Of a stretch of 64,000 nt of DNA, positions 8,390 to 30,116 are shown piece after piece. Origin of the DNA: Clostridia bacterium. Its GTDB lineage: Bacteria > Bacillota > Clostridia > Christensenellales > Aristaeellaceae. Numbering within the stretch: position 1 is the first letter of the stretch; every line of letters starts with the position of its first letter. A model generated the notes under the pieces. The model was not told the origin of the DNA, did not search any database, and was given only the letters and a program-made list of their open reading frames with translations. The position numbers and the translations under genes are program-made. The stretch covers positions 62,001-126,000 of the forward strand of contig JAFWQU010000003.1 in the NCBI GenBank assembly GCA_017508975.1. The letters are read 5' to 3'.

Positions 8390-10006
8390 TCAGCCCTGAT
8401 CCGGTTTGCGGGTGAGCCGGAACACATTCCAGGAGTCCGGGTGCAGCTGCGCGGTCACGATGCCTTTGTCCAGGCGGGTGTCGGGATTCCGGCGGGGCAG
8501 GATCGCGTCCGGGTGCTCCCAGGTGTTCGCGGCGTGCGGATCCTCCGCGAACATCTCCACGTGCTCCTCCAGCCGCCAGTCTTCGAAGCCGCGCACATCC
8601 AGCTCCAGCGGCTGGGATTCCCCGGCGTCGCCGCAGACCACGAACACGTTCAGCGCCTCGGCCGCCTCGTCCAGCGCGGCGCCGGCCTGGACCACCGGCA
8701 CGCCGGTGAAGCCGCCGTACTGGTTCATGTCGTCGATGGCGTAGCCCGGGACGTCGTAGCGCGCGCAGCGGACCTCGCACTGCAGGGACTCGCCCCGCGC
8801 CCAGCGGATCATCTGCGTGAAGGGGTAGTGGGACGCGCCCTTCCAGACGTGCTCGCGGTCGGTGCGGCACAGCGCGCCGAGGCCGCCGGTGGCGCAGCCG
8901 ATCTTCAGCCGGTCCGCGTGGCGGAGCATCACGAGCATGGTGCTCGCCATGCCCAGCGCCTGCAGCATCTCGTGGTCCGACGGCGGCATCCGCCGGGTGG
9001 ACCAGTCGTCCGGGTCGTGCCGCACATAGGTGCGCCTGGGGTCGAACACGCCGAACATCTCCGCGTTCTGCCGCCCGGCCAGGCCCAGGTGCGCCTCGCC
9101 CCGGGGACGGAACATGCTGCCGTACTCGTCCAGCGCGAGCATCATAGTCTTCTTCGTGCGGAGCTTGGTGCGGATGAAATCGCACAGCGCGATCTCGGTG
9201 CGGATATAGTCCTCGAAGGCCTGGCAGCCCGCCAGCAGCGCCCGGGGCAGGTCCGGCGGCGCGGAGTGGTAGTGGTGCAGGGAGATATAGTCCACCGCGC
9301 TGTAGCACTCCTCGAGGACCTCCCGGTCCCACTCCGGATAGTGGTTCAGGAAGGGCGAGGAGGAGACGCAGGCGATGGTCTCGATGGTCGGGTCCACCCA
9401 TTTCATGGCCTTGCTGGTCTCGTGGGCGAGGACGCCGTAGCCGCGGGGGTCCTTCTCCCGGGAAGCGATCTGCCAGGGGCCGTCCATCTCGTTGCCGAGG
9501 CACCAGGTTTTCACCCCGTAGGGCGCCTCATGCCCGTTCCGCCGCCGCAGATCCGACCACCAGGTGCCGCCGGGATAGTTGGTGTACTCCACGCAGTCCG
9601 CCGCGTCCTGCAGCGTGCCCGTGCCCAGGTTGACCGTGTAGATCGGCTCCACGCCCGCGCGCTCGGCCCACTGCAGATACTCGTCGTGGCCCACGTCGTT
9701 CGGAATCAGCTGGAACCATGCCATGTCGAGGTGGGTCTTGCGCGCCTCGCGGGGACCGATGGAGTCCTTCCACTGCCAGCCGGAGACGAAATTGCCGCCC
9801 GGCATGCGCACCGCCGGCAAGCCGGACACCCGCAGGGCCTCATAGAAATCCCGCCGCAGGCCCAGCTCGTCCGCCGAGGGGTGTTTGGGGTTGTACATGC
9901 TGCCGTTCACCATGGAGCCGATCGGCTCGAGAAACGCGCCGAAAAGCCGCGGTGAGATTTCTCCGATCCGATAGTCCGGGTGCAGGGTGATTTTCGCTTT
10001 CTCCAT
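8390..10006 (-). CDS. abfA: GH51 alpha-L-arabinofuranosidase
   Basis: A 538-residue glycoside hydrolase of family 51, which removes terminal arabinofuranose from arabinoxylan and arabinan. No signal peptide, as expected for intracellular family members that act on imported oligosaccharides. Visible blocks: PRLFGAFLEPIGSMV, RMPGGNFVSGWQWKDSIGP, the acid/base loop WCLGNEMDGPWQ with Glu173, ISLHHYH, and MLALDEYG with Glu294 as the likely nucleophile. The start at 10006 follows GGAGGGCG. The frame stays open for about 740 further codons upstream, but that part is antisense to another gene and has no coding signs. Confidence 0.92.
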   Translation of the reverse strand: MEKAKITLHPDYRIGEISPRLFGAFLEPIGSMVNGSMYNPKHPSADELGLRRDFYEALRVSGLPAVRMPGGNFVSGWQWKDSIGPREARKTHLDMAWFQLIPNDVGHDEYLQWAERAGVEPIYTVNLGTGTLQDAADCVEYTNYPGGTWWSDLRRRNGHEAPYGVKTWCLGNEMDGPWQIASREKDPRGYGVLAHETSKAMKWVDPTIETIACVSSSPFLNHYPEWDREVLEECYSAVDYISLHHYHSAPPDLPRALLAGCQAFEDYIRTEIALCDFIRTKLRTKKTMMLALDEYGSMFRPRGEAHLGLAGRQNAEMFGVFDPRRTYVRHDPDDWSTRRMPPSDHEMLQALGMASTMLVMLRHADRLKIGCATGGLGALCRTDREHVWKGASHYPFTQMIRWARGESLQCEVRCARYDVPGYAIDDMNQYGGFTGVPVVQAGAALDEAAEALNVFVVCGDAGESQPLELDVRGFEDWRLEEHVEMFAEDPHAANTWEHPDAILPRRNPDTRLDKGIVTAQLHPDSWNVFRLTRKPDQG

Positions 10007-19393: not shown

Positions 19394-20737
19394 ATGCGCA
19401 AGATACTGTGCCTGCTGCTCGCGCTGACGCTGCTTGCGGGCTGTGCGGCGGCGGAGGAGAGCTGGATACCCCTGCAGGACTGCCACCGGGTGAAGCTCAC
19501 CTGGAAGGACACCAAGCAGTCCAACGGCTCGATCGTCCGCCTCTGGCACGCCGAGACCGCGCTGCCGGAGGTGACGCAGTTCGTCAACTCGCTGGCGGAG
19601 GACCTCGCGGAGGAACTCGGGCCTGCCCTCCCCAAGGGCAAGGGCACCGGCTCCGGCTCCTCCCGGGCGGACGTCGAGATCCGCTACAGCCGCACGGGAC
19701 TGAGCTGGCTCTCCTTCCTGGTGCAGGCGCGCGTGAGCAAGAGCCGCAAGCTGACCGATCAGCGGATCGCCTCCGTCACCTTCGACATGGCCACGGGCGC
19801 GGAGATCGGACTGACCGACATCTTCGCGGACGACAGCCCCGCCTGGGAGCAGCTCGCCGGGCCGATCCGGGAGCAGATCACCGCCTATTTCCCGGACAAG
19901 GCGCCGGACGAGGCGGCGCTCGCGGCAGCGGTCACCGCCGAGGGGCTCTCGGAGACGGACTTCACGCTGCACGGGATGTCCCTCGTGCTGCACTACCCGG
20001 CGGAGCGCTTCTACCCGGGCGTGCACACGCTGCTGGAGGTCACGCTGATGTACCCGGACATCCGGGAGTACATGACTCCGGAGGCGCAGGCGGCGACAGA
20101 TAACACGGCCTACTACCGCTTCGCGGCGCTGACCTTCGACGACGGCCCGTCGCGCACGAACACCACGCTGGTGCTGCAGAGCCTGATGAAGGCCGGCGTC
20201 CGGGGCACCTTCTTCGTGATCGGCAACCGGATTGCGAACTATCAGGACCTGGTGCAGCGCGAGCACGACGAGGGTCACGCCATCGGCGGCCACAACTGGC
20301 ACCACGGCAACGTCTCCAAGTCCGCCGCGAGCGCCCTTCGGCAGATGCCCGCGAAGGTCAACCGCGCCCTGATCGCGGCCATCGGGATTCCCACGCGTTA
20401 TGACCGGGTGCCCTACGGCCTGTATCCGAAGATGGAGAAGGCGAAGGCCGGCTGGGCGTACATCCAGTGGAGCCTGGACACCTACGACTGGCGCGGGCGC
20501 TCCACGGCGAACATCATGCAGAAGGTGCGCAAGCAGGCCACGGACGGCGACATTGTGCTGATGCACGACATCAAGGACAAGACCCCGGCGACCACGCTGG
20601 AGATGGCGCAGTGGATGCAGGAGAACGGCTTCATGCTCCTGACCGTCGATGAGCTCTTTGCCAAGGACGGCATCACGCTGGAGCCGAACCGCACCTATTG
20701 GCGCAACGCCGGCGGCGAGACCGGTATCAAGCACTGA
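19394..20737 (+). CDS. lipoprotein polysaccharide deacetylase (NodB domain)
   Basis: A 447-residue exported protein. LLAGC at residues 13-17 is a lipobox, so it is probably a lipoprotein anchored at Cys17. Residues 25-235 form an N-terminal region of the DUF4163/DUF3298 kind, as in PdaC. The NodB domain starts with TFDDGPS (Asp249, Asp250), has the metal-binding GGHNWHHGN (His300, His304), VPYG in place of the usual PPYG, and VLMHDI near the end. These are the residues needed for N-deacetylation of peptidoglycan or xylan acetyl groups. It starts 4 bases after the ABC-F stop, so the two are translationally close. Confidence 0.85.
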   Translation: MRKILCLLLALTLLAGCAAAEESWIPLQDCHRVKLTWKDTKQSNGSIVRLWHAETALPEVTQFVNSLAEDLAEELGPALPKGKGTGSGSSRADVEIRYSRTGLSWLSFLVQARVSKSRKLTDQRIASVTFDMATGAEIGLTDIFADDSPAWEQLAGPIREQITAYFPDKAPDEAALAAAVTAEGLSETDFTLHGMSLVLHYPAERFYPGVHTLLEVTLMYPDIREYMTPEAQAATDNTAYYRFAALTFDDGPSRTNTTLVLQSLMKAGVRGTFFVIGNRIANYQDLVQREHDEGHAIGGHNWHHGNVSKSAASALRQMPAKVNRALIAAIGIPTRYDRVPYGLYPKMEKAKAGWAYIQWSLDTYDWRGRSTANIMQKVRKQATDGDIVLMHDIKDKTPATTLEMAQWMQENGFMLLTVDELFAKDGITLEPNRTYWRNAGGETGIKH

Positions 20738-20790
20738 AACCACCAAGGATGATTCTCAAGCAGGGATTCAGAATCAATCCAGGGACGCGC

Positions 20791-20957
20791 CCGAAGAGTC
20801 CAGAGGCGATCGGAAAGCCTCTGGCCGCGCCCGCAGGCGCGGAATCCCTGGAAAGTAAGCATTCAAAATCAACTCAGGGATTCACCTGAAGAATTAAAGG
20901 CGACCGGAAAGCTGCCAGTCCGGCTGCGAACCTCTGGCCGCGCCGGAAGGCGCGAAT
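20791..20957 (+). repeat. two tandem R1 cores, second degenerate
   Basis: Core one at 20791-20847 (stem AGAGGC/GCCTCT, GCGCC/GGCGC). Core two at 20885-20957 is a decayed long-type copy: loop GACCGGAAA, insert GCCAGTCCGGCTGCGAACC, and second hairpin CGCGCC/GGCGCG with the loop changed to GGAA. They fill the gap between the deacetylase and SEC-C genes. Confidence 0.7.
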
Positions 20958-20984
20958 TCTTTCATCGCAGAGGGGGGTGAGAAG

Positions 20985-22043
20985 ATGACACAGGAGGAGC
21001 TGCTGCGCCGCAGCACGGTGACGGAGCTCCGCTCCGTCTGTGAGCGCATGGGCGCCGAGCCGCCGCGCGCGCTCCGCGGAAAAGAAGGCCTGATCCGGCT
21101 CCTGCAGGAGACCCTGCGCGCGCACCCCGAGCGCCTGTGGATGGCGCTCAGCCCGGACGGAATGGACCTCCTCTGGGACTGCATGACCCGGGGCGCCGCC
21201 GGATCGGAGCGCTGGCCGCTGAACCCCGCCGAGGCGGAGGCGATGGCGGACGACCTGGAACTGCTCCGCTGGATGGGACTCAGCACCTGCCGGGGACATG
21301 CCTGGTCCCTGCTGCCGGAGCTCTGGCCCCTGCTGCCCGCGACTGACGCACAGTGGCAGAAGGTCGACCAGCTGGGCGCCTGCCTGGACGAGGGGATGGT
21401 ACTGCTCTCCTACTGGGGTATGGCGACCGCCGAGATGCTGCTGCGGGAGATCCGCCGCTCCTATCCGGACGCGGTGCTGCCCGGACCGGAGGAGCTGAAC
21501 CGGATCTACACCGCGGGCAGCGGCACCGAGAACACCTGGCGCTCGCCCGACGGCCGGCTGTGGCTGCTGCACCCGGACTGCACACCGGAGGACCTCTGGA
21601 ACCTCTGGGAACGGGAACCCATCCTGAAGCTGCTGCCGTGGGCGGAAATCAACCTGCCTGCGCTGGAGAAGGTCCCCCTGGACGTGCCGCTGCCCCAGGA
21701 GGCCTGGGACGCGCTCTGCGGCCTGCTCGAGCGCCGCGGGATGCGGGAGGAGGACATCGCCCCGAACCTGGTGGACTGCCTGTGGAAGCTGCAGACCGAG
21801 AGCCTCGGCGACGCGGTGGATACCCTGCGGGAGGGCTTCCCCCAGCCGCTGGAGGCCGCCGACGCCTGGGTGATCACCTACTGCGTGGAGTGCCTGCCGC
21901 TATGGCGCTTCCGCGGCCGGAGCCTCCACACCCTGCGCAAGGAACGCGCCGCCTTCATCCGCGAGCATAAGCCCGACCCCAACGCCCCCTGCCCCTGCGG
22001 CAGCGGCCGTCCCTATGCCCGCTGCCACGGAAGGCTGAATTGA
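20985..22043 (+). CDS. SEC-C motif protein with SAP/Rho-N-like N-terminus
   Basis: A 352-residue cytoplasmic protein. It ends in PCPCGSGRPYARCHG, the zinc-binding SEC-C motif also found at the end of SecA. The first 45 residues (EELLRRSTVTELRSVCERMG ... GKEGLIRLLQETL) have the helix-extended-helix pattern of SAP or Rho-N domains, which bind nucleic acid. The middle (60-320) is helical and tryptophan-rich with no recognised family. GAGGGGGGTGAG precedes the start. Function unknown; a nucleic-acid or ribosome-linked role is only an inference from the two terminal motifs. Confidence 0.72.
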   Translation: MTQEELLRRSTVTELRSVCERMGAEPPRALRGKEGLIRLLQETLRAHPERLWMALSPDGMDLLWDCMTRGAAGSERWPLNPAEAEAMADDLELLRWMGLSTCRGHAWSLLPELWPLLPATDAQWQKVDQLGACLDEGMVLLSYWGMATAEMLLREIRRSYPDAVLPGPEELNRIYTAGSGTENTWRSPDGRLWLLHPDCTPEDLWNLWEREPILKLLPWAEINLPALEKVPLDVPLPQEAWDALCGLLERRGMREEDIAPNLVDCLWKLQTESLGDAVDTLREGFPQPLEAADAWVITYCVECLPLWRFRGRSLHTLRKERAAFIREHKPDPNAPCPCGSGRPYARCHGRLN

Positions 22044-22089
22044 TTTTCTCCCATCAAACAGATAAAAAACAGACAGGCAAAAGTAACTT

Positions 22090-22160
22090 CCGAAGGTCCA
22101 GGGCGATCGGAAAGCCGCCAGTCAGGCTGCGGACCTGGTCGCGCCCGCGGGCGCGAAAAC
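22090..22160 (+). repeat. R1 core (long type)
   Basis: CCGAAGGTCCAGGGCGATCG start, insert GCCAGTCAGGCTGCGGACC with one base change from other copies, and second hairpin CGCGCC/GGCGCG with loop CGCG. It lies between the SEC-C and dehydrogenase genes. Confidence 0.75.
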
Positions 22161-22210
22161 CCCTTGTTGAAAAAGAGATCAGGAAATAAACCGAAAAAGG
22201 AGAATGAAAC

Positions 22211-23392
22211 ATGGCTGACAAGGTTCGCATCGGCATCATCGGTATCGGCAACCAGGGTTCCGGATACTTCCGCCACTTCACCGGCGAGGGCTGGTGCCCC
22301 GAGGCGGAGCTGACCGCGGTGGCGGACATCAACCCCGCGCGTCTCCAGTGGGCGGAGAGCACCGCCCCGCAGGTTCGCCGCTTCGGAGACGCCCTCGAGA
22401 TGCTGGACTCCGGCCTCGTAGACGCGGTGATCGTCTCCGTCCCCCACTACGACCACCCGAAGTACGTCATCGCCTGCCTGCAGCGCGGCATCCATGTCAT
22501 GTGCGAGAAGCCCGCGGGCGTCTATACCAAACAGGTGCGCGAGATGAACGCCGAGGCGGAGAAGCACCCGGACGTCGTCTTCGGCATGATGTTCAACCAG
22601 CGGACCAACTGCCTGTACCGCAAGATGCGCGAACTGGTGCAGAGCGGCAAGTACGGCCGCGTACGCCGCGCCAACTGGCTGATCACCAACTGGTACCGCA
22701 GCCAGTTCTACTATGACAGCGGCGACTGGCGCGCCACCTGGTCCGGCGAGGGCGGCGGCGTGCTGCTGAACCAGTGCCCCCACAACCTGGACCTCTGGCA
22801 GTGGATCCTCGGCATGCCCAAGAAGGTGCAGGCCTTCATGCGCTTCGGCCAGTGGCACGATATCGAGGTCGAGGACGACGTGACTGCGGTGATGGAGTAT
22901 GAGGACGGGCACACCGGCGCGTTCATCACCTCCACCGGCGACCCCCACGGCACCAACCGCCTGGAGGTGCAGATGGACGGCGCGCAGCTCATCGCCGAGG
23001 ACGAAAAGCTGACCGTGATCGAGTTTGAACAGCTGGAGCAGGAGTGGACGAAGACCAACCGCGAGTCCTTCGGCCGGGTGCCCAGCAAGCAGATCGAGGT
23101 GGAGCTGGAGGGCGGAAACCCGCAGCACCGCGGCGTTCTGGATGCCTGGGTCGGCGCGATCCTGCACGGCACGCCCCTGGTAGCCGGCGGCGCCGAAGGC
23201 CTGCAGGGCCTGACCCTCTCCAACGCCATGCACCTCTCCGCCTTCCTGGGCCGCCCCGTGGAGCTCCCGCTGGACGAGGATCTCTATTATGAAGAGCTCA
23301 TGAAGCGCGCCGCAGCCTCCCGCCGCAAGGAGCACGTCGAGGCGGTCTTCGCGGACACCGCGGGGACGTTCGGAGGATCAACGAAAGGCTGA
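22211..23392 (+). CDS. Gfo/Idh/MocA family oxidoreductase
   Basis: A 393-residue NAD(P)-dependent sugar-type dehydrogenase. The Rossmann motif is RIGIIGIGNQGSG near the N-terminus, followed by the family signature CEKPAGVYTKQVREM with the EKP lysine at about residue 100. The SEGEGGGVLLNQCPHNLDLWQW-like region (GEGGGVLLNQCPHNLDL) carries the catalytic His and nearby Asp. AAAAGGAGAATGAAAC precedes the start. It is strongly similar to the gene at 51116-52294, including the ITNWYRSQFYYDSGDWRATW stretch. Substrate unknown; a keto-sugar or inositol-type compound is likely. Confidence 0.88.
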   Translation: MADKVRIGIIGIGNQGSGYFRHFTGEGWCPEAELTAVADINPARLQWAESTAPQVRRFGDALEMLDSGLVDAVIVSVPHYDHPKYVIACLQRGIHVMCEKPAGVYTKQVREMNAEAEKHPDVVFGMMFNQRTNCLYRKMRELVQSGKYGRVRRANWLITNWYRSQFYYDSGDWRATWSGEGGGVLLNQCPHNLDLWQWILGMPKKVQAFMRFGQWHDIEVEDDVTAVMEYEDGHTGAFITSTGDPHGTNRLEVQMDGAQLIAEDEKLTVIEFEQLEQEWTKTNRESFGRVPSKQIEVELEGGNPQHRGVLDAWVGAILHGTPLVAGGAEGLQGLTLSNAMHLSAFLGRPVELPLDEDLYYEELMKRAAASRRKEHVEAVFADTAGTFGGSTKG

Positions 23393-23400
23393 TTCGGGAC

Positions 23401-23429
23401 TTGACATTCCGAACATAACCCTTTACAAT
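23401..23429 (+). promoter_or_regulatory. promoter of the type III toxin-antitoxin module
   Basis: TTGACA (23401-23406), exactly 17 bases, TACAAT (23424-23429). Transcription would begin about 23436, ten bases before the first repeat. Confidence 0.85.
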
Positions 23430-23445
23430 AGTCTTGCGTAACAGC

Positions 23446-23549
23446 GGGTGTTTCTCAGCCCTGAATGAGACATTTACGAGTGAGCTTCTCTTGGCTCTGA
23501 TCAAGACACTTATGAGTGAGTGTTTCGCGACTCTGATAGCGATCGTAAC
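23446..23549 (+). repeat. tandem 36-base antitoxin repeats, about 2.9 units
   Basis: Units at 23446-23481, 23482-23517 and 23518-23549 (partial). Units one and two agree at 24 of 36 positions. Shared positions include the initial G-x-G, TTCTC or TTTC near positions 7-9, CTGA at 16-19, AGACA at 23-27 and GAGT at the end. Confidence 0.75.
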
Positions 23550-23550
23550 A

Positions 23551-23580
23551 GGGCAGGCTTTCGCCTGCCCTCGTTCTTTT
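23551..23580 (+). terminator. terminator between antitoxin RNA and toxin
   Basis: GGGCAGGC pairs perfectly with GCCTGCCC around TTTC, followed by TCGTTCTTTT. In this class it lets only a fraction of transcripts reach the toxin gene. The toxin ribosome binding site GGAGG begins in the next base. Confidence 0.85.
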
Positions 23581-23591
23581 GGAGGTATATC

Positions 23592-24086
23592 ATGCAAGAC
23601 TTGCGTTTGTTTACTGTGGACGAGGCTTATGTGGATTATCTGATCCGGTTTGCGCCGCATATGTTCCATAACAGCCAGACAGGTCAGACAAATACAAGAA
23701 AATACATAGGCGTCATTCTGTCTGTAAATGGGATAGAATATTTTGCACCACTATCCTCCATGAAACCCAAACACAGAAAAATGAAGGAATCTGTCGACTT
23801 TCTTAAAGTCGGAGATTATGCGGTCATCAATATCAATAATATGTTCCCGGTTCCGAATGGTCTTGCGGTATACGTTGACTTTTCAAAGGAGCGGGATCCC
23901 AGGTACAGATCCCTTCTGCTGGCTGAATACAGAATCATCAAGCAAAAGCAGGATTTGATCAGGAAAAACGCACAGACGCTGTATCGTCTGGTTACGCAGA
24001 ATAAAGGCGAGTCATCCCTCCTGAATCGATGCAATGATTTTGAACTGCTGGAGAAAGCATGCAAAGAGTATCAATCCATCAGGTAA
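23592..24086 (+). CDS. toxN: type III toxin-antitoxin endoribonuclease, ToxN/AbiQ family
   Basis: A 164-residue protein matching ToxN/AbiQ over its full length. The first 65 residues carry the family pattern: LFTVDEAYVDYLI, then TRKYIGVILSVNGIEYFAPL and SSMKPKHRKMKES. K37, S55/S56 and K58 correspond by position to the catalytic K33, T52/S53 and K55 region known in Pectobacterium ToxN. The C-terminal part (YRSLLLAEYRIIKQKQDLIRK ... FELLEKACKEYQ) is the usual helical half. The start at 23592 is set by GGAGG 6 bases upstream; the open frame reaches back through the terminator, which is not coding. The gene is clearly more AT-rich than its neighbours. Known relatives cause abortive infection or plasmid maintenance. 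Confidence 0.87.
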   Translation: MQDLRLFTVDEAYVDYLIRFAPHMFHNSQTGQTNTRKYIGVILSVNGIEYFAPLSSMKPKHRKMKESVDFLKVGDYAVININNMFPVPNGLAVYVDFSKERDPRYRSLLLAEYRIIKQKQDLIRKNAQTLYRLVTQNKGESSLLNRCNDFELLEKACKEYQSIR

Positions 24087-24088
24087 TC

Positions 24089-24242
24089 CTGGTCTCAAGT
24101 AAAAGTGCAAATCAAGCAGCAGCGGACGCCCGAAGATCCAGGGCGATCGGAAAGCCGCCAGTCCGGCTGCGGACCTAGTCGCGCCCGTAGGCGCGAAATC
24201 TCTCTGTTGACAATAAGCATTCTAAACAGAGATCAGTATAAA
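24089..24242 (+). repeat. R1 repeat, MITE-like unit (long core)
   Basis: Begins 2 bases after the toxN stop. Left end CCTGGTCTCAAGTAAAAG, right end ACAGAGATCAGTATAA; core at 24130-24200 with the long insert and second hairpin GCGCC/GGCGC (loop CGTA). Confidence 0.8.
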
Positions 24243-24270
24243 TAGACAGTTTGAGAAGGAGCTTTGAACA

Positions 24271-25326
24271 ATGAATAATCTGGACCATACCTCATCCATG
24301 ATCCGTTTCACCGGCCGGATCGCCTTGCTCCCGGAGGGAGCGCGGTTCTACTGGCCGGGATCCTTCGCGCAGGTGACCTTCACGGGGACCTGGCTGCGCT
24401 GCGCGGTGACGCCGGCGCTGGTCTGGGGAAGCAACAGCCTGGGGCTCGTGGTGGACGGACGGCTGTCCCGGATTCCGCTGACCCCGGCGCAGAACGGGCA
24501 GCGGCTGGACCTGCTGCTGGCGGAGAACCTGGAGCCGGATCCGCTGCACACGGTGATGCTCTTCAAGCAGCTGGACTGCTCCTACAGCTATACGCTCCAC
24601 GGTTTCTCGACGGACGGCGCGTTCGGCGAGCCCCCGGCGCGGGAGCCGCTGCGGCTGGAGTTTTACGGAGACAGCGTGACCAGCGGCGCCTGTGTGGAGG
24701 CGGTGGACTATGTCGGCCGCACGGACCCGTGCAGCAACGACGCGATTTATGACAACGCCTGGTGGTCATATGCCTGGCAGTGCAGCCGCCTGCTGGGCGC
24801 GGAATGCCACCTCACGAGCCAGGGCGGCATCGCGGTGCTCGATCGGACCGGCTATTTCCACTGGCCCGACGGCATCGGCATGGTCCGGACCTGGGACCGG
24901 CTGTGCTATTTCCCGGAGGCCGGGGAGTATACGAAATGGGACTTCAGCCGCTTCATCCCCCACGCGGTAATCTTCGCCCTCGGCCAGAACGACCAGCACG
25001 ACGCCGCCACGGACAGCAACATCCTGACCTGCAATGACCCGGAGCACCGCCGGGAGTGGAAGGAAGCCTACAAGGGCATCGTCCGCGGCGTGGCCGGGCA
25101 CTATCCGTCCGGCACCCCGCTGGTGTTCATCACCACCCTGATCCGCCACGACCGCTGCTGGGACGACGCGATCGACGAGATGGTCCGGGAGCTCTGTGCG
25201 GAAGGCCTGAACGCCCATCACTTCCTCTTCGCCCGTAACGGTGACGGCACCAACGGCCATCCCCGCATCCCCGAACAGACCGAGATGGCGGAGGAGCTGG
25301 CGGGATTCTTGAGGAAGGTGCTGTGA
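24271..25326 (+). CDS. carbohydrate esterase family 2-type acetyl esterase (SGNH fold)
   Basis: A 351-residue esterase with the two-part layout of CE2 enzymes: an N-terminal beta-sandwich (about 5-115, GRIALLPEGARFYWPGSFAQ) and an SGNH hydrolase domain. The nucleophile is in FYGDSVTSG (Ser135), the Asn-containing FALGQNDQHD follows, and the late NGHPRIPEQTEMA carries the catalytic His. CE2 enzymes remove acetyl groups from xylan and related sugars. No signal peptide is visible, so it may act on imported oligosaccharides. GAGAAGGAGC precedes the start. An R1 unit separates it from toxN. Confidence 0.85.
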   Translation: MNNLDHTSSMIRFTGRIALLPEGARFYWPGSFAQVTFTGTWLRCAVTPALVWGSNSLGLVVDGRLSRIPLTPAQNGQRLDLLLAENLEPDPLHTVMLFKQLDCSYSYTLHGFSTDGAFGEPPAREPLRLEFYGDSVTSGACVEAVDYVGRTDPCSNDAIYDNAWWSYAWQCSRLLGAECHLTSQGGIAVLDRTGYFHWPDGIGMVRTWDRLCYFPEAGEYTKWDFSRFIPHAVIFALGQNDQHDAATDSNILTCNDPEHRREWKEAYKGIVRGVAGHYPSGTPLVFITTLIRHDRCWDDAIDEMVRELCAEGLNAHHFLFARNGDGTNGHPRIPEQTEMAEELAGFLRKVL

Positions 25327-25331
25327 GGAAA

Positions 25332-25720
25332 TGAGGGATTCGGAATTGAGAGTGTGTGCGGCATTGATTCCGAATTCCGCATTCATCATTCCGAATTGAG
25401 AAAGGCCCCTCTGCCGCTGACGCGGTATCTCCCCAGCAAGCTGGGGAAACAGAGGGTTTCCGCGCCTGCGGGCGCGGCCAGGGGCTTTCCGATCGCCCTC
25501 TGGACTCCTTCGGGGATGCACCTATTTGGAGCATTTGGGTCAGCATTGCTCAGTAACCTGTGCCGCCCCAGCTTGCTGGGGAGGTGCCCGAAGGGCGGAG
25601 GGGCCGTCCCAGCCATGCTGTCCCCGAACATCCAAAAGAGGATGCTGCCGAAGGTCCAGGGCGATCGGAAAGCCGCCAGTCCGGCTGCGGACCTGGTCGC
25701 GGCCCGCAGGCCGCGAAATC
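25332..25720. repeat. composite repeat R4-R3-R1(rev)-R3-R1(fwd)
   Basis: Same order as at 14163-14576: R4 25332-25401, R3 reversed 25405-25446, R1 reversed 25455-25513 (short core), linker GATGCACCTATTTGGAGCA, R3 forward 25565-25603, linker with CATCCAAAAGAGGATGCTG, R1 forward long core 25648-25720. The reversed core is short here but long at 14293, so cores vary independently of the rest. It fills most of the 550-base gap. Confidence 0.8.
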
Positions 25721-25805
25721 CCCTTGCGAAATTCCCAAATCAAGAATTAGGAAAAAGGTCCTTCCCCATCATTCCCCGGGGCAAGGACTTTTTTTCTGAA
25801 CCCCC

Positions 25806-25857
25806 TTGACAAACACAAAAACATAGTGTACTATTCAGATAGTGCACTGGTGCACTA
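25806..25857 (+). promoter_or_regulatory. promoter with overlapping GntR/YtrA-type operator
   Basis: TTGACA (25806-25811), 17 bases, TACTAT (25829-25834). The palindrome TAGTGTACTA (25824-25833) overlaps the -10 box, and TAGTGCACTGGTGCACTA follows at 25840-25857. These suit the AGTGTAC-type half sites of YtrA regulators and imply autoregulation of the regulator-transporter operon. Confidence 0.75.
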
Positions 25858-25875
25858 AGAGAGAGGAGGGGGGCC

Positions 25876-26235
25876 ATGCAATTCGATCCGATGATTCCGA
25901 TCTGGCTGCAGGTCATGGAGGACCTGGAGGTCGGAATAATCACGGGCAAGCATCCGCCGGGAAGCAAGCTGCCGGGCGGGCGGGAGACCGCGGTCCAGTA
26001 CGGGATCAACCCGAACACGGCGGCGCGGGTCTACCAGGAACTTGAGAAGCTGGGGCTCAGCGAGACCCGCCGGGGACTCGGGAGCTTTGTCACCGAGGAC
26101 GGGGCGCTGATCGCCCGGGTACGGGAACAGCTGGCGGGCAAGGCGGTGGACCGCTGCATGCGCGACCTGGCTCGGCTGGGCGTCGAACGGAGCGCCGCGA
26201 TCCAGATGCTATTGGAACGGGAGGAGAAGAACTGA
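25876..26235 (+). CDS. GntR family regulator, YtrA subfamily
   Basis: A 119-residue regulator made of the GntR winged helix (PIWLQVMEDLEVGIITGKHP, GSKLPGGRETAVQYGINPNT as helix-turn-helix, VYQELEKLGLSETRRGLGSF as wing) and only a short helical tail, the mark of the YtrA subfamily. Such proteins repress adjacent ABC transporter genes and often respond to cell-wall antibiotics. GAGAGGAGGGGGGCC precedes the start. The ABC ATPase gene starts 1 base after its stop. Confidence 0.9.
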   Translation: MQFDPMIPIWLQVMEDLEVGIITGKHPPGSKLPGGRETAVQYGINPNTAARVYQELEKLGLSETRRGLGSFVTEDGALIARVREQLAGKAVDRCMRDLARLGVERSAAIQMLLEREEKN

Positions 26236-26236
26236 C

Positions 26237-26941
26237 ATGCTGGAAAGCAGAGAACTCACGAAAAAATACGGCAGCAAGACCGCCGTGTCGGGCATCAGCC
26301 TGAAGCTTGAGGCGGGGCACATCTGCGCGATGCTGGGGCCGAACGGCAGCGGCAAGACCACCTGGATGAAGATGGCGGCGGGGCTCGTGAAGCCCACCTC
26401 CGGCGAGATCCTCTTTGAGGGCGCGCCGGTGAGCATTGAGAGCCGCAGGCACATCGCCTACATGTCCACGGAGCCCTACTTCTACACCTGGATGAGCGCG
26501 AAGGACGTGGGCAAGTACTATGAGGACTTCTTCGAGGACTTCTCGGTCGAGCGCTACCGGAATCTCCTCGCGCGCATGGAGCTGACCGAGGACCTGAAGG
26601 TGAAGGCCCTCTCCTCCGGCATGGCGGCGAAGCTCAAGATCGCCGCGACCCTGGCGCGGGACGCCAAGGTCTGGATGCTGGACGAGCCCTTCAACGGGAT
26701 CGACCTGCTGGCCCGGGACCAGATCCGGGAGTGTATCGTCGAGCGCGCCGGGGAGGACCGGCTGTTGCTCCTCTCCAGCCACCTGGTGGAGGAGATGGAG
26801 ACGCTGGTGGACCGCGCGGTCTATATCCGGGAGGGCGTGCTCATTGAGTCTGTCGATCTGGAGCAGCTGCGCACCGAGCGCGGGCTGTCCATGGCGGACC
26901 TGTATCGCCAGATCTACACCGGCAAGGAGGTGATCGCATGA
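26237..26941 (+). CDS. ABC transporter ATP-binding protein (YtrB-like)
   Basis: A 234-residue ATPase with Walker A GPNGSGKTT at about 34-42, a signature reading LSSGMAAKLKIAATLA, and Walker B VWMLDEPFNGID. The LSSGM form of the signature and short length are common in YtrB/CcmA-like exporters. It overlaps the permease gene by 4 bases (ATGA). It would energise the membrane protein encoded next, under control of the GntR protein. Confidence 0.9.
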   Translation: MLESRELTKKYGSKTAVSGISLKLEAGHICAMLGPNGSGKTTWMKMAAGLVKPTSGEILFEGAPVSIESRRHIAYMSTEPYFYTWMSAKDVGKYYEDFFEDFSVERYRNLLARMELTEDLKVKALSSGMAAKLKIAATLARDAKVWMLDEPFNGIDLLARDQIRECIVERAGEDRLLLLSSHLVEEMETLVDRAVYIREGVLIESVDLEQLRTERGLSMADLYRQIYTGKEVIA

Positions 26942-27687
26942 TCCGCCTGATGAAATATGAACTGCGCAAGAGCTGGTATCTCAAGGCGATTCTGCTGCTG
27001 GTGACCGCGGTGGCGGAGGCGGTGTTCCTGATCGGCCTGTGGGGCGGGAAGGACTCGCTGACCGCGACGGGCGTTCTCCTGCTGACGATCCTGGCGACCA
27101 CCGGAACCATGGTCATCGGCCTGGGCACGGTGTTCGTCCTGCACCGGGACATCAACACCAAGCAGAGCTGCATGCTCTTCATGACCCCCCACTCGAGCTA
27201 CGAGATTCTGGGCGCGAAGCTGCTGGAGAACGCGATCTCCATCCTGCTGATCGGCGCGTTCTTCTTCGGCCTCGGCGCGCTGGACATCACGCTGCTCTTC
27301 GCCAAGGAGCAGGCGCTGGACCGGCTCTGGCAGATTATGTCGGAGATGCTGCGCACCATCAACGAGAACCTGACCATCGACGCGCCGCATCTGGCGGCCT
27401 TCCTGTGGATGCTGATCGCCGACTGGCTCACCACGGTGGTGACGGCCTGTCTGGCGGACGTGCTCTCCGCCTCGCTGCTGGCGGGCAAGCGCTTCTCGGG
27501 GCTGATCAGCGTGCTCTTCTTCCTGGCGCTCAATGTCGCGCTGAACTGGCTGATCCGGCTGATCATGAACCAGATTCCGACGGACTTCGTCACCTCCTGC
27601 GTGGTGGGCGGCTGCCTGTCGATCGTTCTCGGCGCGGCGATGTATGTGGTCACCGCGGTGCTCATGGAGCGCAAGCTAAGCGTCTGA
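26938..27687 (+). CDS. ABC-2 type membrane protein, transporter permease
   Basis: A 249-residue membrane protein with about six hydrophobic segments, for example AILLLVTAVAEAVFLIGLW (20-38), GVLLLTILATTGTMVIGLG, ISILLIGAFFFGLGAL, LISVLFFLALNVALNWLIRL and CLSIVLGAAMYVVTAVL. No sequence signature beyond the ABC-2 layout. Last gene of the YtrA-type operon; an R1 unit begins right after its stop and a strong terminator follows at 27835. Substrate unknown; export or lipid II-linked stress response is only a family-based guess. Confidence 0.8.
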   Translation: MIRLMKYELRKSWYLKAILLLVTAVAEAVFLIGLWGGKDSLTATGVLLLTILATTGTMVIGLGTVFVLHRDINTKQSCMLFMTPHSSYEILGAKLLENAISILLIGAFFFGLGALDITLLFAKEQALDRLWQIMSEMLRTINENLTIDAPHLAAFLWMLIADWLTTVVTACLADVLSASLLAGKRFSGLISVLFFLALNVALNWLIRLIMNQIPTDFVTSCVVGGCLSIVLGAAMYVVTAVLMERKLSV

Positions 27688-27826
27688 TACCAATCTCAGT
27701 ATTATGCGCTAAATGTCATCAGAGAGATTTCGCGGCCTGCGGGCCGCGACCAGGGCTTTCCGATCGCCCTGGACCTTCGGTTGCATGCCATTTCTTGATT
27801 TGAAATTTTGCTTGAGATCAGTCTGA
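27688..27826 (-). repeat. R1 repeat, MITE-like unit (short core)
   Basis: Starts directly after the permease stop codon (TACCAATCTCAG) and ends TTGAGATCAGTCTGA. Reverse core at 27726-27780 with GCGGCC/GGCCGC and CCAGGGC/GCCCTGG stems. Confidence 0.8.
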
Positions 27827-27834
27827 ACGTTCTT

Positions 27835-27865
27835 CTGTCCGGCCGGTAGGCCGGACAGATTTTTT
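27835..27865 (+). terminator. terminator of the YtrA-type transporter operon
   Basis: CTGTCCGGCC pairs perfectly with GGCCGGACAG around GGTA and is followed by ATTTTTT. Confidence 0.9.
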
Positions 27866-27999
27866 GCTGCGGTTTACGGTTTTTGCCGCAGACAGCAAAA
27901 ATCGCTTTGACTGACTGCCATCCCGGTCCTCCATGCGTATCTATCCATGCAGCGATGAAACAGGCGCTGCGGAAGATCAGAATGATTTTTTACAGGTGC
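27866..27999. other. intergenic stretch with no recognised feature
   Basis: Between the terminator and the BIG2 promoter. A second weak inverted repeat (TGCTGCGG with CCGCAGACAGCA) follows the terminator; nothing else is recognised. Confidence 0.5.
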
Positions 28000-28030
28000 T
28001 TCACACAAATGGCATAATTCGTGTTATACT
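28000..28030 (+). promoter_or_regulatory. candidate promoter of the BIG2 protein gene
   Basis: TTCACA (28000-28005) and TATACT (28025-28030) match consensus well, but the 19-base spacer is longer than ideal. Confidence 0.45.
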
Positions 28031-28091
28031 GATATACCCGGTTAACGGGAAAACACCCGTGCCGGATCCTGGCTGAATGGAGGTCATCGCA

Positions 28092-30116
28092 ATGAAAAGG
28101 ATCCTGATTCCCCTGCTGCTTCTGACAATGCTCTTCGTGAGCCTGTCGGCGGCCGCGGAGGGAAACACCATGGCTTTTGACCGCAAGGTCAATACCGTCT
28201 TCGAGGGTGAGACGCTGCAGACGGTGCTGAACCGCAGCGGCAGTCCCGCCCAGGGGGAAGTCACCTACGTCTCCTCGAACCAGAAGGTTGCCACCGTGGA
28301 TGAGGCCGGCGTCGTGACCGGCGTGTCCAAGGGACAGGCGACCATCACCGCCACCGTGCAGGTCGAGAAGAAGACCTACCGGGCGCAGCTGAACGTGACC
28401 GTGGCGCGCAAGGTGACCGCCGTGTCGGTGAACACCTCCCGCCTGGCGGTCTACACGGCGGACGACCCGAAGGTGGCCGGCCTGCTGAGCGCTGACGGCG
28501 ACAGCACGCTGCCGGTGCTGGTGCTCCCGACCCGCAAGAGCGCGGAGCTCAAGATCACGGTCGAGCCCAAGGACGCCACGAACCGCAGCGTGACGCTGTC
28601 GACCACCGACGAGACCGTGGCCCGTGTCCGCGGCAGTTCGATCACTTCCGCGGCTCCGGGCGAGACCGTGGTGACGGTCGCCAGCGCGTCGAATCCCGAG
28701 GTGAACACGCAGCTGCGTGTGCTGGTGGTGCAGCCGGTGACCGGCATGAAGCCCACCGTGAAGAACCCCCGGGCGTCCGTGGGCGGACAGATTGCGCTGG
28801 GCGTCGAGGTGACGCCCGCGAACGCGACCATTCCGGGGATCGCCTGGTCCTCCTCCGATGAGAGGCTGGCCACGGTGGACGCCGACGGCGTCGTGACGGG
28901 CCTCAAGCGCGGCACCGTCCGCATCATCGCCAGCGCCACGGACGGCAGCGGCGTCCGCGCGAACATTAGTGTGCAGGTGGTGCAGAGCGCCGAGCAGATC
29001 ACCCTGGACAAGCAGGAGCTGACCGTCGACGTGAGCCGCACGGGCATGCTGACCGCGACGGTGCTGCCCCGCGACACCAACGACAAGAGCGTGGTCTGGA
29101 GTTCCTCCGACGAGTCCATCGCGAAGGTCTCCGCCGGCGGCCGGGTCACCGGCGTCCGGGTGGGCAGCTGCGTGATCACCTGCACCAGCAAGGAGGCCGG
29201 CACCGTCCAGGCGACCGCGCTGGTCCATGTGCAGCAGCCCGTGACCAAGGTCCACCTGAACGAGGTGCCGATGGTGTTCGTCAACGACACCTGGCAGCTC
29301 TCCGCGTCCGTGGAGCCCATCACGGCCACCAACCCGACCCTGGCGTTCACCTCCTCCAAGCCGGACGTGCTGAGCGTGGATGAGGCGGGCATCATGCGCG
29401 GCCTGAAGGCCGGCGAGGTCTATGTGACCGCCACCGCCACCGACGGCAGCCGCCGCAGCTCCCGGATCCGCGTCAAGGTCGCGCCGCATGCCACGGGCGT
29501 GCATATGCGCCGCCACACCGCCTACATCGACGTGGGCGAGACCGCCACGGCCGGCGCGGTGTTCGAGCCGGAGAACGCGGGCAACAAGAACATGAGCTGG
29601 GAGATCGAGAATACGGCCATCGCCACCGTCACGGGCAATTCGAACCAGGCGCGCATCACCGGCCGTGCCCTGGGCGACACGGTGCTGCTGGGCGTCACCG
29701 AGGACGGCGGCTTCCAGACCAGTATGCTCGTGAAGGTCGGCAACTGGGAGAAGTCCCTGCGCTTCGTGATGGCGGAGATGAGCGGCAAGCACGACTTCCT
29801 GATCGAGGTGAAGAACGTCGGCACGCTGCCGGTCTCGAACATCAAGGTGGAGATCACGGCCTTCGACGATGACAACGATCCGATCGCCATCAACGAGAAG
29901 AACGGCTCCAACGTGGTCACCGGCACCTTCAAGCGCACGCTGAGCCCCGGCAAGACCACGGATATGTACCAGTGGAGTTTCCCGGACTACCACCGGCCGG
30001 AAAATGATCGGATTGCACGGTTTGTGGCCAAGATTGTCAGCTTCCAGATTGATAACGACTGGGTGAAGACGATCCGGGAGCGCAACCGTCCCAAGATGGA
30101 ATACAGGATTAACTGA
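28092..30116 (+). CDS. secreted protein with tandem bacterial Ig-like (BIG2) domains
   Basis: A 674-residue exported protein. The start at 28092 follows GGAGG by 9 bases; an ATG five codons earlier sits on top of that site. Signal peptide to about residue 23 (SLSAAAEG). It then carries about six BIG2 domains of 80-90 residues, each with the pattern VTYVSSNQKVATVDEAGVVT or a close variant (IAWSSSDERLATVDADGVVT, VVWSSSDESIAKVSAGGRVT, LAFTSSKPDVLSVDEAGIM). The last 120 residues (LRFVMAEMSGKHDFLIEVKN) look like another beta-sandwich. Probably a cell-surface adhesive or spacer protein. Two more secreted-protein genes follow closely. Confidence 0.88.
   Translation: MKRILIPLLLLTMLFVSLSAAAEGNTMAFDRKVNTVFEGETLQTVLNRSGSPAQGEVTYVSSNQKVATVDEAGVVTGVSKGQATITATVQVEKKTYRAQLNVTVARKVTAVSVNTSRLAVYTADDPKVAGLLSADGDSTLPVLVLPTRKSAELKITVEPKDATNRSVTLSTTDETVARVRGSSITSAAPGETVVTVASASNPEVNTQLRVLVVQPVTGMKPTVKNPRASVGGQIALGVEVTPANATIPGIAWSSSDERLATVDADGVVTGLKRGTVRIIASATDGSGVRANISVQVVQSAEQITLDKQELTVDVSRTGMLTATVLPRDTNDKSVVWSSSDESIAKVSAGGRVTGVRVGSCVITCTSKEAGTVQATALVHVQQPVTKVHLNEVPMVFVNDTWQLSASVEPITATNPTLAFTSSKPDVLSVDEAGIMRGLKAGEVYVTATATDGSRRSSRIRVKVAPHATGVHMRRHTAYIDVGETATAGAVFEPENAGNKNMSWEIENTAIATVTGNSNQARITGRALGDTVLLGVTEDGGFQTSMLVKVGNWEKSLRFVMAEMSGKHDFLIEVKNVGTLPVSNIKVEITAFDDDNDPIAINEKNGSNVVTGTFKRTLSPGKTTDMYQWSFPDYHRPENDRIARFVAKIVSFQIDNDWVKTIRERNRPKMEYRIN

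Follow-up and report, generated by a model that had tools for sequence, protein, structure and literature searches.

In ToxIN systems, the toxin ToxN cleaves the precursor of its RNA antitoxin and assembles with the antitoxin units into a ring that contains three copies each of toxin and RNA (PMC5086642, PMC5772629, and PMC8860590, accessible text). The arrays described in the accessible text of PMC5086642 and PMC8860590 are composed of repeats of 34-36 nt under one consensus, and antiQ, the antitoxin of lactococcal AbiQ, is given in the former as 2.8 repeats of 35 nt. According to the accessible part of PMC4627078, the scissile base is an adenine in the structures of both CptIN and ToxIN, and one CptI repeat is fully antitoxic, which provides a precedent for single-unit antitoxins.

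The window (the whole stretch of 64,000 nucleotides of DNA analysed here) carries at positions 23401-24086 a complete type III toxin-antitoxin locus, in which a promoter is followed by three 36-nt RNA units, a terminator, a ribosome-binding site, and toxN. With the ToxIN systems of Pectobacterium (2xd0/2xdd), of Bacillus thuringiensis (4ato), and of 7d8o, it shares a toxin of the ToxN family, H-type pseudoknot units of about 36 nt, in the window read from the sequence, and the order promoter, repeats, terminator, toxin. Its toxin also matches the AbiQ profile and thereby resembles AbiQ/antiQ of Lactococcus (4glk). An antitoxin made of H-type pseudoknots is shared with CptIN (4RMO) as well, whereas the units of CptIN are 45 nt long and its ring joins two toxins with two RNAs, and the toxin of the window belongs to the ToxN family. 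In contrast to the described ToxIN arrays, the group to which the window belongs has three different pseudoknots in a fixed order or, in a spirochaete branch, a single one. The sequence comparisons reported below make it probable, at roughly 0.87 in our estimate, that this is a ToxIN-family type III locus with an antitoxin made up of three different pseudoknots in a set order.

Layout of the locus and its toxin

A sequence-only reading of this DNA had proposed a complete type III order with a consensus promoter, a strong terminator, a ribosome-binding site, and a ToxN/AbiQ-like gene, and all of these elements were found in place (Table 1), so that the gene order is evident from the sequence. 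Of the 28 loci of the close group defined below, 25 have a promoter site with at least 9 of 12 consensus positions ahead of their first unit and L032-L034 reach 8 of 12, in a count made without a shuffle control. The same reading had described the module as AT-rich in GC-rich surroundings, and indeed GC contents of 0.44-0.46 were obtained in 500-base steps over toxN, compared with about 0.59-0.71 in most other steps of the region 20000-30000.

Table 1. Features of the type III locus, numbered from the first letter of the window
Feature	Position	Strand	Basis
Sigma-70 type promoter, TTGACA-17-TACAAT	23401..23429	+	consensus match 11/12
Putative ToxN processing motifs: UAA 23439-23441, UUA 23474-23476, UUA 23510-23512, UAA 23546-23548	23439..23548	+	about 36 nt apart; cutting predicted
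Unit A, H-type pseudoknot GGGU-guu-UCUCA-GCCC-ugaa-UGAGA; S1 GGGU/GCCC, S2 UCUCA/UGAGA	23446..23470	+	pseudoknot scan; position kept in alignment A3; S1 independently predicted by RNAalifold
Unit B, H-type pseudoknot GAGC-uuc-UCUUG-GCUC-ugau-CAAGA; S1 GAGC/GCUC, S2 UCUUG/CAAGA	23482..23506	+	pseudoknot scan; covariation in A3
Unit C, H-type pseudoknot GAGU-guu-UCGC-g-ACUC-ugaua-GCGA; S1 GAGU/ACUC, S2 UCGC/GCGA	23518..23542	+	pseudoknot scan; last unit in 22/22 non-spirochaete leaders (L007 included)
Intrinsic terminator between antitoxin and toxin, 9-bp stem	23550..23571	+	terminator search
Ribosome-binding site GGAGGT	23581..23586	+	read from sequence
toxN, 164 aa, ToxN/AbiQ family	23592..24086	+	PF13958, AbiQ, solved relatives

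The 164-aa protein matches the ToxN_toxin profile PF13958 with an E value of 6.1e-47 and 160 bits (cut-off 25) over profile positions 2-159 of 159, and the PADLOC AbiQ profile with an E value of 5e-37, while an NCBIfam search returned no family. Comparison with solved chains by phmmer gave 4ato (E 7.2e-19), 2xd0 (3.4e-13), 7d8o (1.8e-12), which we take to be an E. coli ToxN-family toxin, and AbiQ 4glk (1.5e-8), establishing the toxin family from the sequence. The motif PLSSxKxKH is present in all 28 toxins of the close group and is set by the phmmer alignment against PLTSPK of 2xd0; the serine/threonine pair and the lysine of these motifs are presumably the ToxN active-site residues. By kinship, the window toxin would be an endoribonuclease. 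It is the single PF13958 match in its genome, a draft assembly that is 66% complete.

A pseudoknot scan of the window leader detected three H-type pseudoknots of 25 nt each, whose starts are spaced by 36 nt, and three were detected again when the limits on geometry and score were made stricter. Among 2000 dinucleotide shuffles of the leader, three pseudoknots were never obtained, two were obtained in 9, and one in 281. The stem sequences differ between A, B, and C, and pairing is retained in every unit. A direct-repeat search and Tandem Repeats Finder both reported zero repeats in the window leader, because the units are too unlike each other; near-identical units that this program can find are usual in ToxIN without being definitional, and the window leader lacks them.

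Unit orders among relatives and pairing of the units

Protein searches, with the own genome counted, gave matches in 5 of 200 related genomes, 10 of 396 genomes of the order, and 34 of 391 genomes of the class, and in addition at 10 loci in genome contigs, at 4 and 10 loci in viral contigs (these contigs being partly shared), in 168 plasmid records, and in 3 phage records. Five duplicates were removed from the fetched loci and tblastn then yielded 62 loci, window included. The close group consists of the window and 27 loci whose toxins are 49-65% identical to that of the window (n = 28). It excludes L037, with a leader that is cut off by the contig end, and L007, with a fragmentary toxin match. 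Whether repeats occur upstream of close homologues had been set beforehand as a check, and pseudoknot units were found upstream of the toxin in all 28 close homologues (window included) for which the whole toxin and the region before it are available.

The order A-B-C is present in 14 of the 28 loci (window, L003, L009, L018, L019, L022, L031-L034, L036, L061, L063, and L066) and also in the fragment locus L007, which brings the leaders with this order to 15, window included. A-A-C was observed in six loci (L004, L008, L010, L020, L021, and L023) and A-C in one, L035. The seven remaining loci, L011-L017, all from spirochaete assemblies, have a single pseudoknot. In these, the first stem begins 6-8 nt past the best -10 box and therefore there is no space for another unit behind the promoter. 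As A takes the place of B in six loci, the full A-B-C order is non-essential. The pairs L018/L019, L020/L021, and L015/L016 are near copies, so that independent cases are fewer than the loci counted. Sequence comparison thus reveals a recurrent A-B-C order; the recurrence of one set of unlike units, in constant order, over many loci was observed in the close group only. By eye, L040, L067, and L038, ToxN loci outside that group, have unlike units too, and heterotypy as such is therefore not limited to it. Two further arrangements were seen. In L035, a second A-C copy lies about 264 nt further upstream with no toxin directly behind it. In the spirochaete loci L011-L017, the toxin start follows right after the T run of the terminator, and no ribosome-binding site is evident by eye.

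In L010 the toxin gene is interrupted near its start and in L007 it is matched in part; the antitoxin leader is intact in both. These two loci would agree with the idea that the window locus, too, is a decayed or silent relic, a family member by sequence that is inactive. However, the window toxin is of full length, and the promoter, the terminator, the ribosome-binding site, and PLSSxKxKH are all present, which renders a relic improbable.

A tree was calculated from 53 of 62 toxin proteins (L007, L037, L049, and L055-L059 were left out by name and L028 by length) and was rooted at its midpoint for display. A branch with support 100/99 separates the 28 toxins of the heterotypic and single-unit loci from the others, so that a supported toxin group is evident at the level of sequence, and the toxin closest to that of the window is 65% identical to it. 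Within the 28, the seven single-unit toxins form one group (100/100), whose position next to A-A-C loci and the window depends on a weakly supported fork (87/67). Mapping of the unit architecture on the tree required 5 changes compared with 24.9 in shuffles, and as few were reached in 0 of 200. A-B-C alone needs 4 changes and A-A-C alone 3, so that neither is established as a single lineage.

Altogether 74 units were typed (29 A, 15 B, 23 C, and 7 single) with patterns that partly presuppose the pairing; three units that the patterns missed and the three units of L007 were entered manually. Mean same-type identity across loci amounts to 0.79 for A, 0.86 for B, and 0.79 for C, in comparison to a mean of 0.55-0.59 for different types inside one locus. 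The nearest match in other loci is of the same type for 67 of 67 units, a figure inflated by near-copy loci, and 53 of the 67 have a mean identity to their own type that is above their identity to the best neighbour within the locus, the 14 exceptions all belonging to A-A loci or to the duplication in L035. These data bear on the possibility that an ordinary uniform ToxIN array is decaying by drift while some of its units still work. The blank output of the repeat finders in the window and the low identity between types inside a locus are what such decay would produce, but the changes in the stems are compensated, the three types recur in one order in 15 leaders, and units of the same type in different loci are far more similar than unlike neighbours in the same locus, so that we regard decay by drift as very improbable. 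Of the earlier description as about 2.9 degenerate 36-base direct repeats, the number of three units and the 36-nt spacing hold, but instead of degenerate copies the units are three conserved, different pseudoknots.

Because the typing patterns partly presuppose pairing, pairing was tested apart on structure-blind MAFFT alignments. Alignment A3 comprised 20 leaders (15 A-B-C and 5 A-A-C; L035 and the near copy L021 were left out). In A3, 99.0% of 520 pseudoknot cells were paired, compared with 95.2% in shuffles and 34-54% when the pattern was slid. Changes on both sides of a pair occurred in 9 of 26 pairs and in 28 cells, and either count was matched by 0 of 500 shuffles. The covariation score was 0.194 versus 0.113 in shuffles, and further pair types showed no excess over shuffles, 460 of 500 being equally high. 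All four S1 pairs of unit B have both-side changes over A3, six rows of which have a unit of type A here or deviate by substitution. In alignment A2, restricted to the 15 A-B-C leaders, 99.7% of the cells were paired and 4 pairs and 7 cells had changed on both sides, which was equalled by 0 of 500 shuffles; further pair types were equally high in 63 of 500. When RNAalifold was applied to A3, it returned, unprompted, exactly the three S1 stems. The S2 stems are almost invariant within each type, their support coming mainly from differences between types and from complete pairing, and they are less supported than S1. Compensatory changes in the pseudoknots are evident from these alignments. The U and the A of the linkers are invariant over the 20 rows of A3 in both internal linkers and in the 3' linker and would mark cut sites; the 5' processing-type motif varies among rows. 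That the leader is instead a long nested hairpin or attenuator controlling toxN expression is just as improbable as drift. In its favour, energy minimisation folds the window leader into a long hairpin across the units (z -3.34), and this hairpin has 8 cells changed on both sides in A3, above all 500 shuffles. However, it pairs in 80.2% of 440 cells with 3 both-side pairs, where the pseudoknots reach 99.0% and 9, one of the three hairpin helices consists largely of the S2 stem of unit B, and the consensus fold chooses the three S1 stems instead.

Linkage, mobility, and pseudoknots without a toxin

It had also been proposed to check whether repeats and toxin move together across related genomes. 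The unit C pattern with up to 2 mismatches was found in 6 of 391 genomes of the class (reversed control, 0) and a close ToxN is present in all six. Two more genomes have a close ToxN without the pattern, namely G780, with a diverged C, and G738, where the leader runs off the contig. In the window, the module lies between an oxidoreductase gene and a carbohydrate-esterase-like gene; homologues of the upstream gene exist in 12 of 12 genomes of the genus and of the downstream gene in 10 of 12 (own genome included). No empty insertion site was found in the genus, the best copies of the flanking genes outside the own genome being on different draft contigs. The window flanks had no match at E 1e-10 in the flanks of 24 other loci, some of which are short. 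Shared flanks were detected among other loci (L018/L063, L020/L022, L022/L061/L066, L032/L033/L034, and L013/L014). As judged by eye from translations, L018 adjoins terminase- and portal-like genes and L022, L061, and L066 adjoin a gene with a tail tape-measure-like start, and from these phage-like neighbours we conclude that the module is also carried by prophages. A search of 50,697 phage records with the L018 leader (116 nt) gave no match at E 1. A mobile-like unit, R1, had been thought to border the module downstream. R1 (24105-24205) is real, but it is a palindromic-looking repeat dispersed over the genome, with at least 50 matches among those listed, 278 candidates at a first look, and related repeat families across the window; it marks no border of the module in particular and is unrelated to it.

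ToxI-like pseudoknots, one to three per phage, were found in nine lactococcal phages (L105 901-931, L106 901-938, and L108-L113). They lie between the lysin gene and a gene with a resolvase or holin annotation, in some phages overlapping the annotated lysin start, and no ToxN gene is among the genes seen beside them. At E 0.01, the matches comprise 14 records of these nine phages, with two records each for 62402, CHPC967, CHPC1183, CHPC1242, and 05802. Those whose taxonomy was checked belong to Ceduovirus, which we take to be the c2 type. The neighbouring resolvase/holin-annotated gene is found in 123 phage records, and hence most of its carriers have no pseudoknot match at E 0.01. Of 72,556 plasmid records, four, all lactococcal, match the CHPC1183 stretch (86.7% over 45 nt, E 4e-6), and the others have no match at E 1. 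In L107, the one of the four that was retrieved, the stretch corresponds to the ToxI array of a ToxN/AbiQ-family gene. L107 is a relative with 36.7% identity, not pSRQ900 itself, and differs from the window in that its three units are at least 97% alike. It is possible that the phage pseudoknots are natural decoy antitoxins, for which the pseudo-ToxI of phage TE is a precedent (PMC3475682, accessible text).

In viral contigs, the spirochaete-type pattern had no match, and about three chance matches were estimated for the second viral pattern, for which reason L030 and L060 are candidates weighed on their surrounding sequence only. L060, a 140-kb viral contig, has on the minus strand at about 5900-5830 two tandem ToxI-like pseudoknots of different types, and L030 has at about 9430-9530 a unit A, the beginning of a unit resembling B, and a stem of terminator type, near ORFs that look recombinase-like by eye. 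By tblastn with the window toxin, no ToxN was found within 6.8 kb in L060 or within 10.5 kb in L030.

Proposed mechanism and place in the ToxIN family

By analogy with the described systems, RNase activity, RNA processing, ring assembly, and phage defence would apply to the window locus as follows. One promoter would give rise to a short RNA carrying the three units. Most transcripts would end at the terminator and few would read on into toxN, thus providing more antitoxin than toxin. ToxN would cleave the antitoxin RNA in the common UUA/UAA linkers into units of about 36 nt, each of which would block ToxN within a closed protein-RNA ring, and, as known ToxIN rings contain three RNAs, one transcript would supply the RNA for one ring. 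On a halt of transcription, for instance during phage takeover, the labile RNA would disappear and the freed ToxN would cut RNA; a function of the locus in phage defence is plausible. Unlike units should also withstand the slippage and recombination that alter repeat number in uniform arrays.

A more far-reaching joint reading holds that A, B, and C are non-interchangeable and that each occupies a fixed place in an asymmetric A-B-C ring whose RNA comes from a single transcript, gene order thereby setting antitoxin stoichiometry, that unlike units arose in an arms race with phages, since a phage can copy, expand, or capture a uniform array as a single decoy but not three different units, and that the spirochaete branch was then cut down to one pseudoknot. 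We consider this combination unlikely, and put it forward tentatively. The best reading is that the heterotypic ordered antitoxin is new to the described ToxIN architectures and that the locus is otherwise ordinary in kind. In the open-licence literature, as far as it was accessible and supplements aside, no description of unlike ordered units or of a single-unit spirochaete antitoxin was found. HMP2_3156, a candidate structured RNA of 106 bp, is one of three from Clostridiales and Leptotrichia directly upstream of ToxN (PMC8040213, accessible text) and, compared by description alone, could be an earlier sighting of the A-B-C RNA; in contrast to the units reported here, the accessible main text of that paper does not use the word pseudoknot and describes no distinct ordered units.

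With the settings 2, 7, 7, and score 50, as quoted in PMC8860590, Tandem Repeats Finder detected repeats in 2 of 28 group leaders, the near copies L020 and L021, or fairly in 2 of 21, as seven of the 28 leaders have one unit. For the other ToxN leaders the figure was 19 of 32 (L007 not counted), toxin fragments lying beside some of these leaders. According to their accessible text, the surveys PMC5086642 and PMC8860590 required a tandem repeat array upstream of ToxN, and one of them used this program for verification. An Rfam search of the whole window gave no family at threshold, and with the leader alone the best hit was TLS-PK3 at 30.5 bits (E 5e-5 in a small search; cut-off 80). Six ToxN loci with classical repeat arrays gave no Rfam match either, and the blank result for the window antitoxin is therefore uninformative.

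Since Tandem Repeats Finder misses most antitoxins of the close group, our results suggest that the surveys underestimate the size of the family. Natural sets of unlike units with their matching toxins offer a direct way to test what ToxN recognises in the pseudoknot and whether order in the ring matters, and the single-pseudoknot spirochaete branch would represent a minimal natural antitoxin.
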